A DNA stretch of 64,000 nucleotides from a virus. Under the pieces are notes generated by a model. The model did no database searches. It was given only the letters and a program-made list of their open reading frames with translations, and had not been told where the DNA came from. The translations under genes and the position numbers were made by a program. Position 1 is the stretch's first letter, and each line of letters begins with the position of its first letter. The DNA is taken from positions 1 to 64,000 of IMG/VR virus record IMGVR_UViG_3300019458_000032. The stretch is one strand, 5' to 3'. Positions 4,182 through 30,423 of this stretch are shown here, piece after piece.

Positions 4182-4415
4182 ATGAAACGTATTATAATTT
4201 ATACTGGATTAATTTTATTAGGATATGTCTTAAATATTACCACTAATGAAGTGTGTAATTATGAATGGGAATATTATTATCATAAATCATTAACTGAAAA
4301 TATTCCACCACCTCTTTCTAATAGATTTAAATGGATTAATGAAAATAGAGCATTAAAAGTTTGTCCAATTCTACAATATACACCTGATTTGTATAAAAAA
4401 TTTGAATTCGAATAA
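4182..4415 (+). CDS. small membrane-anchored or exported protein, 77 aa
   Basis: ATG 4182 is preferred over an upstream frame inside the previous gene because the protein then begins with a Lys-Arg N-terminus and a hydrophobic segment (about residues 4-19). The remainder is polar and contains two Cys, which suits an extracytoplasmic domain. It is the last protein gene before the RNA-like region. Confidence 0.6.
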   Translation: MKRIIIYTGLILLGYVLNITTNEVCNYEWEYYYHKSLTENIPPPLSNRFKWINENRALKVCPILQYTPDLYKKFEFE

Positions 4416-4419
4416 GAGT

Positions 4420-4515
4420 TTGTATAGCGGTTACGAGCACTAACACTTTCTAGAAGTGAGTGGATTAGCGTGACTATAAGGGTATGAGAGTGAGGGTAGC
4501 GACTCACCTATACAA
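4420..4515 (+). ncRNA. structured RNA 1, tRNA-like outline
   Basis: An 8-bp terminal stem pairs TTGTATAG (4420-4427) with CTATACAA (4508-4515). Directly against its 3' strand is a 5-bp hairpin GTGAG/CTCAC (4490-4494/4503-4507) with an 8-base loop, placed as a T-arm would be. A hairpin CACT/AGTG (4444-4447/4455-4458) has the 7-base loop TTCTAGA, with CTA in the anticodon position and U at position 33. A short TTA/TAA stem (4431-4433/4441-4443) stands where a D-arm would be. The T-loop consensus TTCRA, D-loop GG and encoded CCA are absent, and about 31 bases separate the second and third hairpins. Either a degenerate or unusual tRNA, or an unrelated small RNA. Confidence 0.5.
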
Positions 4516-4527
4516 TTTATTTTAAGT

Positions 4528-4721
4528 TTGTGTGAGCGGCGTGGTAGATATAGGTATGAAAGGTTTGGGTTTAATCGAGACCACTTGTAACAACCTGGTA
4601 ACACGTGTGGTTAGCCTATTGGAGACACGCAGATGAGATGAGTCGTCAAGTACGTAACCCTTTAATGGGCCAGTATCATCACGTTTAAACTTGAAACAGA
4701 AGTAGTGATCTGTCCACACAA
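4528..4721 (+). ncRNA. structured RNA 2, about 194 nt
   Basis: The ends TTGTGTG (4528-4534) and CACACAA (4715-4721) are complementary. Inside are nested pairs: GCGTG/CACGC, TAGG/CCTA and ACCAC/GTGGT, then a CCC/GGG hairpin (ACCCTTTAATGGG) and ATCAC/GTGAT enclosing GTTT/AAAC. Such multiply nested complementarity in an AT-rich genome is not expected by chance. An AU-rich linker of about 60 bases follows. No known RNA family was recognised by eye. Confidence 0.5.
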
Positions 4722-4781
4722 TTATTTATTATGAGTATTTATTTATGTTACATAATTCTTTTAAAAATGAATAATTTATAT

Positions 4782-4843
4782 ATAGGTGCTCATAGCAGGC
4801 CTGAAGTTCAAAGGTGGAGTTAAATGACCACGAGTCAGCCTAT
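4782..4843 (+). ncRNA. structured RNA 3, about 62 nt with U-run
   Basis: ATAGG (4782-4786) pairs with CCTAT (4839-4843), followed at once by TTTTTT. Inside are the self-complementary CAGGCCTG and a GTGG/CCAC hairpin. It could be a separate small RNA ending in an intrinsic terminator or a domain of a larger transcript. It shares the string TGGAGTTA with RNA 4. Confidence 0.35.
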
Positions 4844-4852
4844 TTTTTTAAT

Positions 4853-4986
4853 TTGTTATAGAGTACTGGAGTTAGTGGCCATGATCGTATACATGGTGTC
4901 AATGACTTAATGTAGGGCTAAGACTTGAGAGGTTGGAATAACACAGTCTAAGATGTGCCGACTTTGTGCCAAAGGCTCTATAACAA
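4853..4986 (+). ncRNA. structured RNA 4, about 134 nt, 11-bp closing stem and U-run
   Basis: TTGTTATAGAG (4853-4863) is a perfect 11-base inverted match to CTCTATAACAA (4976-4986), followed by TTTTTT. Internal hairpins include CCATG/CATGG with an 8-base loop, AGACT/AGTCT and TTTG/CAAA. The closing stem plus U-run could also end transcription of the whole array. The next gene has its own AAGGAG site at about 5001. Confidence 0.5.
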
Positions 4987-5014
4987 TTTTTTAACAAAAT
5001 AAGGAGACATTTAA

Positions 5015-5320
5015 ATGAATTATGATGATTATAAAGAAGCTAAAGAAAGAGTTGCTAAACATAGAGATATTACTTATGATCTTTCTTGTGAAGAAATTGC
5101 TGCTATTGATATCGCTCAACAAATAGGAGGATATGAATGGGCAATCGAAGATGCTCAAAGTAACCTAAAACGTTTATACAAAGCTGCAAAGAAACTACCA
5201 AAACCAAAGAAACAATTGGTTGATGATATAGATCCTCAAATAATTAAAGAAGCTAAATATAAGTTTAGAGGTAAAAGAGATTTACAAAGAAAACTTTACA
5301 TGTATGATGAAATTGAATGA
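5015..5320 (+). CDS. hypothetical helical protein, 101 aa
   Basis: Starts after AAGGAGA about 8 bases upstream. The product is charged and helical, with Lys-rich KLPKPKKQ and RGKRDLQRK segments in its second half. Nothing identifies its function. It is the first gene after the RNA region. Confidence 0.7.
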   Translation: MNYDDYKEAKERVAKHRDITYDLSCEEIAAIDIAQQIGGYEWAIEDAQSNLKRLYKAAKKLPKPKKQLVDDIDPQIIKEAKYKFRGKRDLQRKLYMYDEIE

Positions 5321-24202: not shown

Positions 24203-24822
24203 AAGTAATAATCCCAGCATGCGGCTACGGAATCAGGATGGGGATGCAACCCAATGAATCTAAAGAGATGCTCATTGAAGAAATGCCTCATCCTGCTATG
24301 AAAAATTACAATCAACCAATTATTCAATATTCATTGGATATTTGTGAGCAATATAATTTAGATCCTATTGTAATAACTAGACCTCACAAGGAAGATCTTA
24401 TAGAATATCTTCATAAACACAGAATTGAAGTTATGATTCATCAACCCAAAGACGGTGAAGAGTGGGCATTAACAGTATTAGCTTCACAAAGACATTGGGA
24501 AGAGAATAATTTATTATTACTACCCGATACAAGATTTCATAGCACGGGTATTGTTTTAGATATTGAAGAGGGTTTAAAATTGGGCAATAATGCAGTATTT
24601 GCATTACATAACGTAGATGATCCTCATAACTGGGGAATTATTAAAGATTATAATTTAATTGAAAAACCCAAAACCCTTAGTGTTGGAAGATATTGGGCTT
24701 GGGGGTTAATTGCGTTTAAAGATTATTATGGAGAAGAACTATTTTCTTCAAAACAATTAACTTTAAAAGATGTTGGATTTTGTTATTTAGATCACTTTAG
24801 AGATATTACGAGAACTAAATGA
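24199..24822 (+). CDS. sugar nucleotidyltransferase-like protein, 207 aa
   Basis: The start MKVIIPACGYGIRMG with SKEML at residues 21-25 matches the nucleotidyltransferase signature (G-x-G-x-R-[ML]-G ... K-x-[LM]). LLLLPDTRFHS gives the metal-binding Asp, and NAVFALHNVDDPHNWGIIKD and VGRYWAWGLIAF follow the glucose-1-phosphate thymidylyltransferase-like order. ATG 24199 is chosen for its ATGA overlap; a frame four codons longer is less likely. It would supply an activated sugar for the two transferases. Confidence 0.85.
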   Translation: MKVIIPACGYGIRMGMQPNESKEMLIEEMPHPAMKNYNQPIIQYSLDICEQYNLDPIVITRPHKEDLIEYLHKHRIEVMIHQPKDGEEWALTVLASQRHWEENNLLLLPDTRFHSTGIVLDIEEGLKLGNNAVFALHNVDDPHNWGIIKDYNLIEKPKTLSVGRYWAWGLIAFKDYYGEELFSSKQLTLKDVGFCYLDHFRDITRTK

Positions 24823-25886
24823 AAGATAACTTTGGATTTTATTATTACGATATTTCCAAATTTGAAGAACTTGTAGAACAGAAGTATATAAGAAAATCTG
24901 AAACAGATGATCTTGTTTTATACACATATACAGAACAAACAACTTATGAAAAATATTGGAATGACTATACAAGAGCCGCCAGAGGTTTAATTCTAGATAA
25001 ACACACAGGAGAACTTGTTGCTAAACCTTTTCCTAAGTTTTTTAATTTAGGCGAAATGCCTGAAGTATATTTAACAAATCTTCCTTCTCTTGAATATACT
25101 GTATCCGAAAAAGTTGATGGTTCATTGGGTATTATTTATTTCTATAACAATAAATGGAATGTTGCAACAAAAGGTTCATTTGCTAGTGAACAATCAATTA
25201 AAGCTGAAGAAATATTAAAAAAATATGATTTAACTAAAATTAACACTAAAACAACTCTACTAGTTGAAATTATTTATCCTGAAAATAGAGTAGTTGTAGA
25301 TTATAACAACGAAGAAAAACTTGTTTTAATCGGTGCTTATAATAATGTAACCGGTAACGAATTTATAGATTTAGATGTCTATTCAAATTTAACTGGTTTG
25401 CCATTAAGAAAAACATATTCATACACAATCAATGAAATGATAAAGTTACAAAAAACTATTCCCAAGAATCAAGAGGGATTTGTTATTCGTTTCTCATCTG
25501 GATTAAGAATTAAAATTAAAGGCGAAGAGTATTTAAAAATACACAAAATTATATCTAATTTATCACCATTAAGTTTCTGGGAAGTTATGGAAAATGGAAA
25601 AGTTCCTATTAACTATATTCAACAAGTACCAGAAGAATTTCTTGACCAATTTGAACCAATTGTAATTGAGTTAGAAAAACGATATATTCAAATTAAAAAA
25701 GAAGTTGAAGAAGAATTTCACACTTTGCCAAATAAAGAATCTAGGAAAGAAGTAGGATTGCATCTTAAAAAATTTACATATAATCATGAATCCGCAATGT
25801 TTCCTATGTTACTTGATAAAAAAGATGTTGTAGACAAATATATAATGAAACAAATTAGACCAAAGGGTAATAGCTTTAATTTATAA
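24819..25886 (+). CDS. T4 Rnl1-like RNA ligase, 355 aa
   Basis: Motif I SEKVDGS supplies the AMP-accepting Lys98. RAARGLILD precedes it, as in Rnl1. Motif III LLVEIIYP, motif IV EGFVIRF and motif V RIKIKGEEYLKIHK follow in order. Length and the C-terminal helical domain fit T4 RNA ligase 1, which reseals tRNA broken by host anticodon nucleases with help from polynucleotide kinase. The kinase-like gene is at 10696, so the pair is dispersed here. ATGA overlap with the nucleotidyltransferase gene. Confidence 0.9.
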   Translation: MKDNFGFYYYDISKFEELVEQKYIRKSETDDLVLYTYTEQTTYEKYWNDYTRAARGLILDKHTGELVAKPFPKFFNLGEMPEVYLTNLPSLEYTVSEKVDGSLGIIYFYNNKWNVATKGSFASEQSIKAEEILKKYDLTKINTKTTLLVEIIYPENRVVVDYNNEEKLVLIGAYNNVTGNEFIDLDVYSNLTGLPLRKTYSYTINEMIKLQKTIPKNQEGFVIRFSSGLRIKIKGEEYLKIHKIISNLSPLSFWEVMENGKVPINYIQQVPEEFLDQFEPIVIELEKRYIQIKKEVEEEFHTLPNKESRKEVGLHLKKFTYNHESAMFPMLLDKKDVVDKYIMKQIRPKGNSFNL

Positions 25887-30104: not shown

Positions 30105-30423
30105 GTTATTAGAAATTTGGGATAGATGGTCAACGACGGGCATTAAAATGCCCTTCCTTCATGATCCTGAAACAGGTAAACCTTCAGAAACATTGCTTTT
30201 CTATAAAGCAACCACTACAATCACAATTTGTTCTCTATTAGCGTTACATTTTAAAGTAATAACTCCAGGAACAACATTCACAACAGCGGTGGTTAATTTA
30301 TTGGCGTTTGTTTGTTATAGAATGAGAAAATTGGATAAAGTAAAATTGGATCTTGACGATCAGTCGATTGAACTAGATAGTGATGATAATAATGATGATA
30401 AACAAGAAAAGGAAAAAGAATGA
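30097..30423 (+). CDS. membrane protein with acidic tail, 108 aa
   Basis: Two hydrophobic segments (about residues 38-54 and 58-76) are followed by a strongly acidic C-terminus (DDQSIELDSDDNNDDKQEKEKE). A holin-like role is possible because the next genes encode exported and membrane-anchored proteins, but no holin family is recognised. Coupled by ATGA to the ClpP-like gene. Confidence 0.65.
   Translation: MSKLLEIWDRWSTTGIKMPFLHDPETGKPSETLLFYKATTTITICSLLALHFKVITPGTTFTTAVVNLLAFVCYRMRKLDKVKLDLDDQSIELDSDDNNDDKQEKEKE

Follow-up and report, generated by a model that had tools for sequence, protein, structure and literature searches.

A family of small structured phage RNAs with a constant core and exchangeable inserts

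The window, the whole stretch of 64 kb analyzed here from a 76.6-kb uncultivated virus record, carries a gene-free gap in which two consecutive blocks form a tandem pair and belong, on sequence grounds, to a new family of small noncoding RNAs found in phages. That the family is a real structured RNA is virtually certain; as an RNA family it appears to be new, while phage RNAs without an assigned role are, in the broader sense, a kind already known. An invariant core is combined with two insertion sites, the contents of which have, to judge from pairwise comparison of members, been exchanged between phages. With roughly even confidence in the explanation as a whole, we read these molecules as discrete trans-acting RNAs with a fixed core and exchangeable recognition inserts.

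Four blocks in a noncoding gap

The gap lies between an open reading frame ending at 4415 and one starting at 5015 and, at 599 bp, is the longest noncoding gap in the window. An earlier note on this DNA had described positions 4416–4992 as gene-free, G-richer than the surroundings and built of four blocks with inverted ends, three of them beginning with TTGT and ending in ACAA; it took them for an array of compact structured RNAs. The description bears up well: inspection of reading frames between 4415 and 5015 reveals no plausible gene, the G+C content of the gap is 0.38 as against 0.33 for its own genome, the inverted ends were re-found (8, 7, 5–6 and 11 bp), and the TTGT/ACAA termini are those of blocks 1, 2 and 4. 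We infer that the locus belongs to an early region and that RNA is produced from it. The blocks and their parts are listed below, with bit scores from a covariance model, R1 (see the next section), whose E-values are rough on account of a shortened calibration.

4420–4515, plus strand: block 1, a short family member (R1 31.5 bits, rough E 1.5e-8; filters off, 641 bases)
4420–4427/4508–4515: closing stem P1 of block 1, TTGTATAG/CTATACAA, 8 bp
4429–4435/4469–4475: stem P2 of block 1
4490–4494/4503–4507: 3' hairpin of block 1, loop GGUAGCGA at 4495–4502
4528–4721, plus strand: block 2, a family member (R1 33.8 bits, rough E 3.7e-7 over 64 kb)
4528–4534/4715–4721: P1 of block 2, TTGTGTG/CACACAA, 7 bp
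4539–4543/4626–4630: P2 of block 2, with UGGAGA immediately 5' of 4626
4696–4700/4709–4713: 3' hairpin of block 2, loop AGUAGUGA at 4701–4708
4782–4843, plus strand: block 3, ends ATAGGT/GCCTAT, 5–6 bp (4782–4787/4838–4843), then T7
4853–4986, plus strand: block 4, ends TTGTTATAGAG/CTCTATAACAA, 11 bp (4853–4863/4976–4986)

Block 2 is the sole match to R1 in the 64 kb under a filtered search and represents a variant type, in which GUAGAU replaces RRAAGCU; its exact core, AGCGGCGTGGTAGAT, recurs in the locus L222. Block 1, which the default-filtered search of the whole window missed, is a shortened member in which the RRAAGCU loop is absent. With the filters off, over the same 641-base region, blocks 3 and 4 score −2.4 and −0.2 bits, i.e., no match. 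Block 3 is possibly a small hairpin RNA or a terminator-like element, and block 4, whose closing stem measures 11 bp and whose ends are likewise TTGT...ACAA, is probably a structured RNA. Folding z-scores are −1.5, −1.0, +0.4 and −2.5 for blocks 1 to 4 (2 of 200 shuffles fold as well as block 4) and −0.9 for the whole region; as they are not significant for most blocks, fold energy alone is no proof of structure.

Canonical tRNAs are absent, as the earlier note had said: ARAGORN predicts no tRNA gene in the window, a cloverleaf with an anticodon is not seen, and RF00005 has no match in the window's virus record. Across the 64 kb none of the 4227 families of Rfam 15, ROOL, GOLLD, HEARO and Y RNA among them, is found at its gathering score, and a relaxed search of the window returns only weak matches at chance level; the proposed check against the ROOL, GOLLD, HEARO and tRNA models thus gave no match. 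These results bear on the idea that a single large ornate RNA of the ROOL/GOLLD type runs across all the blocks. The total of about 575 nt does fall in the size range of such RNAs; however, neither gathering nor relaxed thresholds bring up ROOL or GOLLD, blocks 1 and 2 have homologues that for the most part stand alone as units of 100–280 nt, and the z-score of the whole region is unremarkable, making this reading highly improbable. The choice of several compact RNAs over one large molecule is hence upheld for blocks 1 and 2, each with its own P1. It does not extend to blocks 3 and 4, and the picture of four RNAs holds only in part since neither of these has a homologue or a model match.

Recovery of the family

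Searches with the gap itself by blastn yielded nothing significant in 50,697 phage records or in syntenic relatives because its variable regions mask homology, and the 101-aa downstream protein used as bait found zero relatives. Relatives of the window phage were collected via its ERF recombinase and polymerase. Several of them have G-rich noncoding gaps, one of which (L037) has AGCGGCGTG...TGGAGACACGC in common with block 2 and a GGTAGCG hairpin loop in common with block 1. A descriptor consisting of P1 and an abutting hairpin with the GGTAGCG loop, run over 1.3 Mb of relatives, recovered four members outside the window (L042, L069, L077 and L098, the last being the copy already seen in L037). 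The core pattern CGGCGTGRRAAGCTGWG retrieved 96 IMG/VR contigs, of which 62 displayed an additional element of the core and the majority are members. The model R1 was built from other phages without any window sequence, and family members recovered number 87.

Known families do not account for these sequences: in Rfam the best match of L069 is to an unrelated human lncRNA family (10.9 bits, E 4.1), L147 has none, and 12 whole member loci give two ordinary tRNAs and nothing else. A description of the family was likewise not found in searches of open-access literature; a prior description elsewhere is possible.

Other elements were observed in the collected loci. In phages related to that of the window by polymerase, a second, provisional candidate for a structured RNA, 280–290 nt long, lies directly 5' of the start of a gene (L031:3885–4165, L032:3612–3906 and L033:1392–1679); in the comparison of two divergent copies, 16 of 37 predicted pairs are kept via double changes. 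At L008:2577–2828 a G-rich noncoding stretch (GC 0.47 vs. 0.36) has a T-run and a ribosome-binding site after it; it has the look of a structured element and is not an R1 match, and L018 3274–3335 has a marginal R1 score of 14.5 bits. Finally, L003:3364–3448 and L035:1598–1682 hold a tRNA-like gene in which the acceptor stem is lengthened into a closing stem of 14 perfect pairs (CATTACCTGGCGAT...ATCGCCAGGTAATG).

Architecture and covariation

From 5' to 3' the members present a constant order: P1, the dinucleotide CG, P2, RRAAGCU, P3 with its insert, P3', UGGAGA, P2', a second variable region, a hairpin and P1'. The closing stem P1 is 7–8 bp long, free in sequence, and pairs the 5' end with the 3' end. 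Inside it, P2 (GCGUG/CACGC) is separated from P3 by an invariant internal loop, RRAAGCU/UGGAGA; P3 (GNNN) bears a variable insert at its tip. After P2' comes the second variable region of about 30–160 nt, and the terminal hairpin of 5–6 bp, with the loop GUMGCG, adjoins P1'. The unit is mostly 100–280 nt long.

In an alignment of 50 sequences, 95% of the cells at the 23 pairs are paired, with 261 double-change cells as opposed to 73 in shuffles. Covariation in homologues, the lack of which had been named beforehand as refuting the idea, is strong: across the 87 members 20 of the 23 pairs show two-sided changes, with 472 double-change cells vs. 144 in shuffles and 93.6% paired. As the presence of P1 had been required when the 50 aligned sequences were extracted, two unbiased tests were made. 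In the first, a scan with the 3' half only (CTGGAGACACGC...GAGTMGCG) gave 18 new contigs, in all of which the model finds the 5' half together with P1, and there P1 and P3 covary freely. In the second, P1 has at least 5 pairs in 81% of the core-selected members as against 7.5% with swapped partners. The near-invariance of P2 partly follows from its having been part of the search patterns, and as a consequence the case for P2 pairing is made by complementarity, together with a few rare exceptions such as L042 (GCGCG/CGCGC). A conserved hairpin and pseudoknot after P2, which visual inspection of L037 and block 2 had suggested, were not sustained: in 42 members the hairpin is not above shuffles and the loop complementarity for the pseudoknot only slightly so.

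These data also weigh on the most deflationary reading, namely that the blocks are remnants of a gene or of a tRNA array, or inverted repeats that arose by chance. It draws on the insignificant fold energies of blocks 1–3, on the AT-richness and divergence of the window members, and on the want of homologues for blocks 3 and 4. Against it are the strong compensatory change over 87 members coupled with invariant loops, the failure to find a tRNA, and the noncoding nature of almost every member, only 4 of 72 overlapping a predicted gene. We regard it as next to negligible overall, though it is for blocks 1 and 2 only that covariation refutes it.

Exchange of inserts between members

The two insertion sites, at the tip of P3 and in the region after P2, accommodate unrelated inserts of about 20–160 nt. 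Individual pairs of members provide the case for exchange. L117 and L154 are 98% alike in the second variable region and have unrelated P3 inserts; conversely, L117 and L131 are 89% alike in the P3 insert and unrelated in the second region. L152 and L154 have a common P3 insert inside differing P1s, and a common 94-nt cassette occupies differing sites in L042 and L118. At L222:3087–3404 (minus strand) there is a partial tandem duplication, whose two copies of the 5' half have the same core and identical flanks and carry unrelated P3 inserts; it is possibly a snapshot of cassette exchange. Furthermore, paired-stem tRNA T-arms are present in the inserts of four members, where shuffles lead one to expect 0.14.

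Distribution and hosts

Phage records of about 4–165 kb contain one to three members each, some of them in tandem or at multiple sites. The close relatives of the window phage are mostly without a member; hence, the family is readily gained and lost. Short-core searches of the 50,697 phage records, which cover cultured phages, produced only weak, chance-like matches, mostly inside coding sequence, and the covariance model, run on five of these records, gave no match; absence from cultured phages, at the sensitivity used, is therefore likely.

Among 84,980 prokaryote species genomes, the strict pattern found one member, located in a MAG assigned to Dependentiae on a contig that resembles a prophage. 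Dependentiae were considered as hosts and set aside: the neighbors of the MAG member are an integrase and a primase, and the other searched genomes of the phylum (101 in total) have none. For one of the member phages, the cultured phage closest to it by terminase infects Silvanigrella; the Silvanigrella phage record holds no family member.

Genomic context and the alternatives to a free-standing RNA

Apart from the phage terminase, the RNA has no gene family as a regular companion. A downstream gene was called for 66 members, and in 13 of them that gene is on the opposite strand (strand-table count), and six members are reversed relative to both neighbors. We count all three observations toward an independent trans-acting RNA, which we hold to be quite probable. 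Its main competitor, for some members, is a cis-acting 5' leader, i.e., a riboswitch or translational control element whose core would sense a ligand or protein and control the adjacent downstream gene. The core is compact and aptamer-like in look, and in 30 of 51 members a same-strand gene starts within 60 nt, often with the RNA directly 5' of the ribosome-binding site. However, short gaps are usual in phage genomes; P1 joins both ends and leaves no visible expression platform; tandem copies have differing inserts; and the downstream genes are unrelated and of no common class. Since the flanking genes are not conserved and about a fifth of the downstream genes are encoded on the other strand, we consider a simple leader element unlikely.

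Clear promoters precede some members (e.g., L098, L042, L113, L162 and L186), with the −10 element ending about 13 nt before the core, whereby transcription would start at P1. Over all members the mean promoter score is barely higher than in shuffles (8.1 vs. 7.7), and given this weak signal many members are probably co-transcribed. Counted against our explanation as a whole are this near-shuffle mean, the proximity of so many members to a downstream start, the failure to find a partner protein, and the missing RRAAGCU of block 1.

A further possibility is that of a tRNA-like or Y-RNA-like molecule, in which P1 stacked on the 5-bp hairpin mimics the acceptor/T-arm stack, with processing by RNase P and contacts to tRNA enzymes, the ribosome or a Ro-type protein. 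The geometry is apt, with a 2-nt linker after P1 and the hairpin 0–1 nt from P1 in the fashion of tRNAs; tRNA genes occur in 14 of 48 member records, one member (G045) starts 12 nt after a tRNA, and some inserts contain T-arms. Yet those T-arms are in few members, the GUMGCG loop is not a T-loop, a CCA end is not seen, and Rfam gives no Y RNA or tRNA match. A TROVE/Ro protein, which we tried as the partner, is above the cut-off in only 1 of 48 records, the window record not being that one. All told, we deem this account improbable; still, the end stack of 7–8 plus 5 bp points to processing by RNase P, and of the hints at mechanism it is the one that lends itself best to a test.

In one phage record (G043, locus L136) a Ro/TROVE-domain protein (547-aa open frame; contig positions 30286–31152) is found along with a family member. 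The window itself has a T4-type RNA ligase gene at 24819–25883 (PF09511, 3.4e-20); such ligases are not supported as partners, being in only 2 of 45 phages with the RNA.

A proposed mode of action

Returning to the trans-acting RNA, we suggest the following course of action. Each RNA would be a discrete molecule with its 5' end at P1; some phages would transcribe it from a dedicated promoter, and in others it would be released from a longer transcript by cleavage. The constant core would bind a common partner, or supply a common shape, in trans. The exchangeable inserts would recognize changing targets, most likely host or defense factors, with the RNA acting as decoy or inhibitor; such targets would explain both the cassette exchange and the occasional T-arm insert. 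Neither the exchange of cassettes nor an early position is enough to establish a host-directed function, and the decoy or inhibitor role is offered as a tentative suggestion.

Relationship to known RNAs

Nearest in kind are ROOL and GOLLD, large ornate RNAs of phages and prophages with function unknown, which are often near tRNA genes (Nature 2025, PMC12286853). The present family is also an orphan phage RNA that is sometimes near tRNA genes; it differs in its core, in its length of about 100–280 nt as opposed to about 600–800+ nt, and in having no Rfam match where ROOL and GOLLD have their own models. A further trait of ROOL and GOLLD is self-assembly into homo-oligomeric RNA cages. Phage tRNA arrays offer another likeness, in tandem compact RNAs with paired ends, the 7–8 plus 5 bp end stack, T-rich linkers and, at times, adjacent tRNA genes; in contrast, the family lacks the cloverleaf, T-loop and CCA, its inserts are much larger, and there is no tRNA in the window. 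Y RNAs, which are bound by Ro/Rsr, have paired 5' and 3' ends and, in the bacterial YrlA type, tRNA-like modules. The family too pairs its ends, but is without an Rfam match to them and, save in the single record mentioned above, without a Ro/TROVE gene above the cut-off. Phage T4 makes the stable RNAs C and D, which are small, of unknown function, and transcribed with tRNAs; the likeness to these is one of general kind, and core searches of the 50,697 phage records found no family member.

Implications

The spread over diverse phage contigs, the strong covariation and the lack of an Rfam model together define a new class of RNA to which a function has yet to be assigned. Compact, and far smaller than ROOL or GOLLD, it joins the little-understood noncoding RNAs of phages, and the covariance model and member list make it annotatable in any phage genome. 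The opposition of invariant core and swapped inserts renders the proposal testable: (i) the core predicts one shared partner; (ii) the inserts predict varying targets. It is conceivable, if as yet doubtful, that these RNAs constitute a modular platform, in which modules are swapped by recombination around an invariant core so as to bind and block changing host or immune targets. If true, they would be an RNA counterpart of modular inhibitor proteins, widespread in phages.
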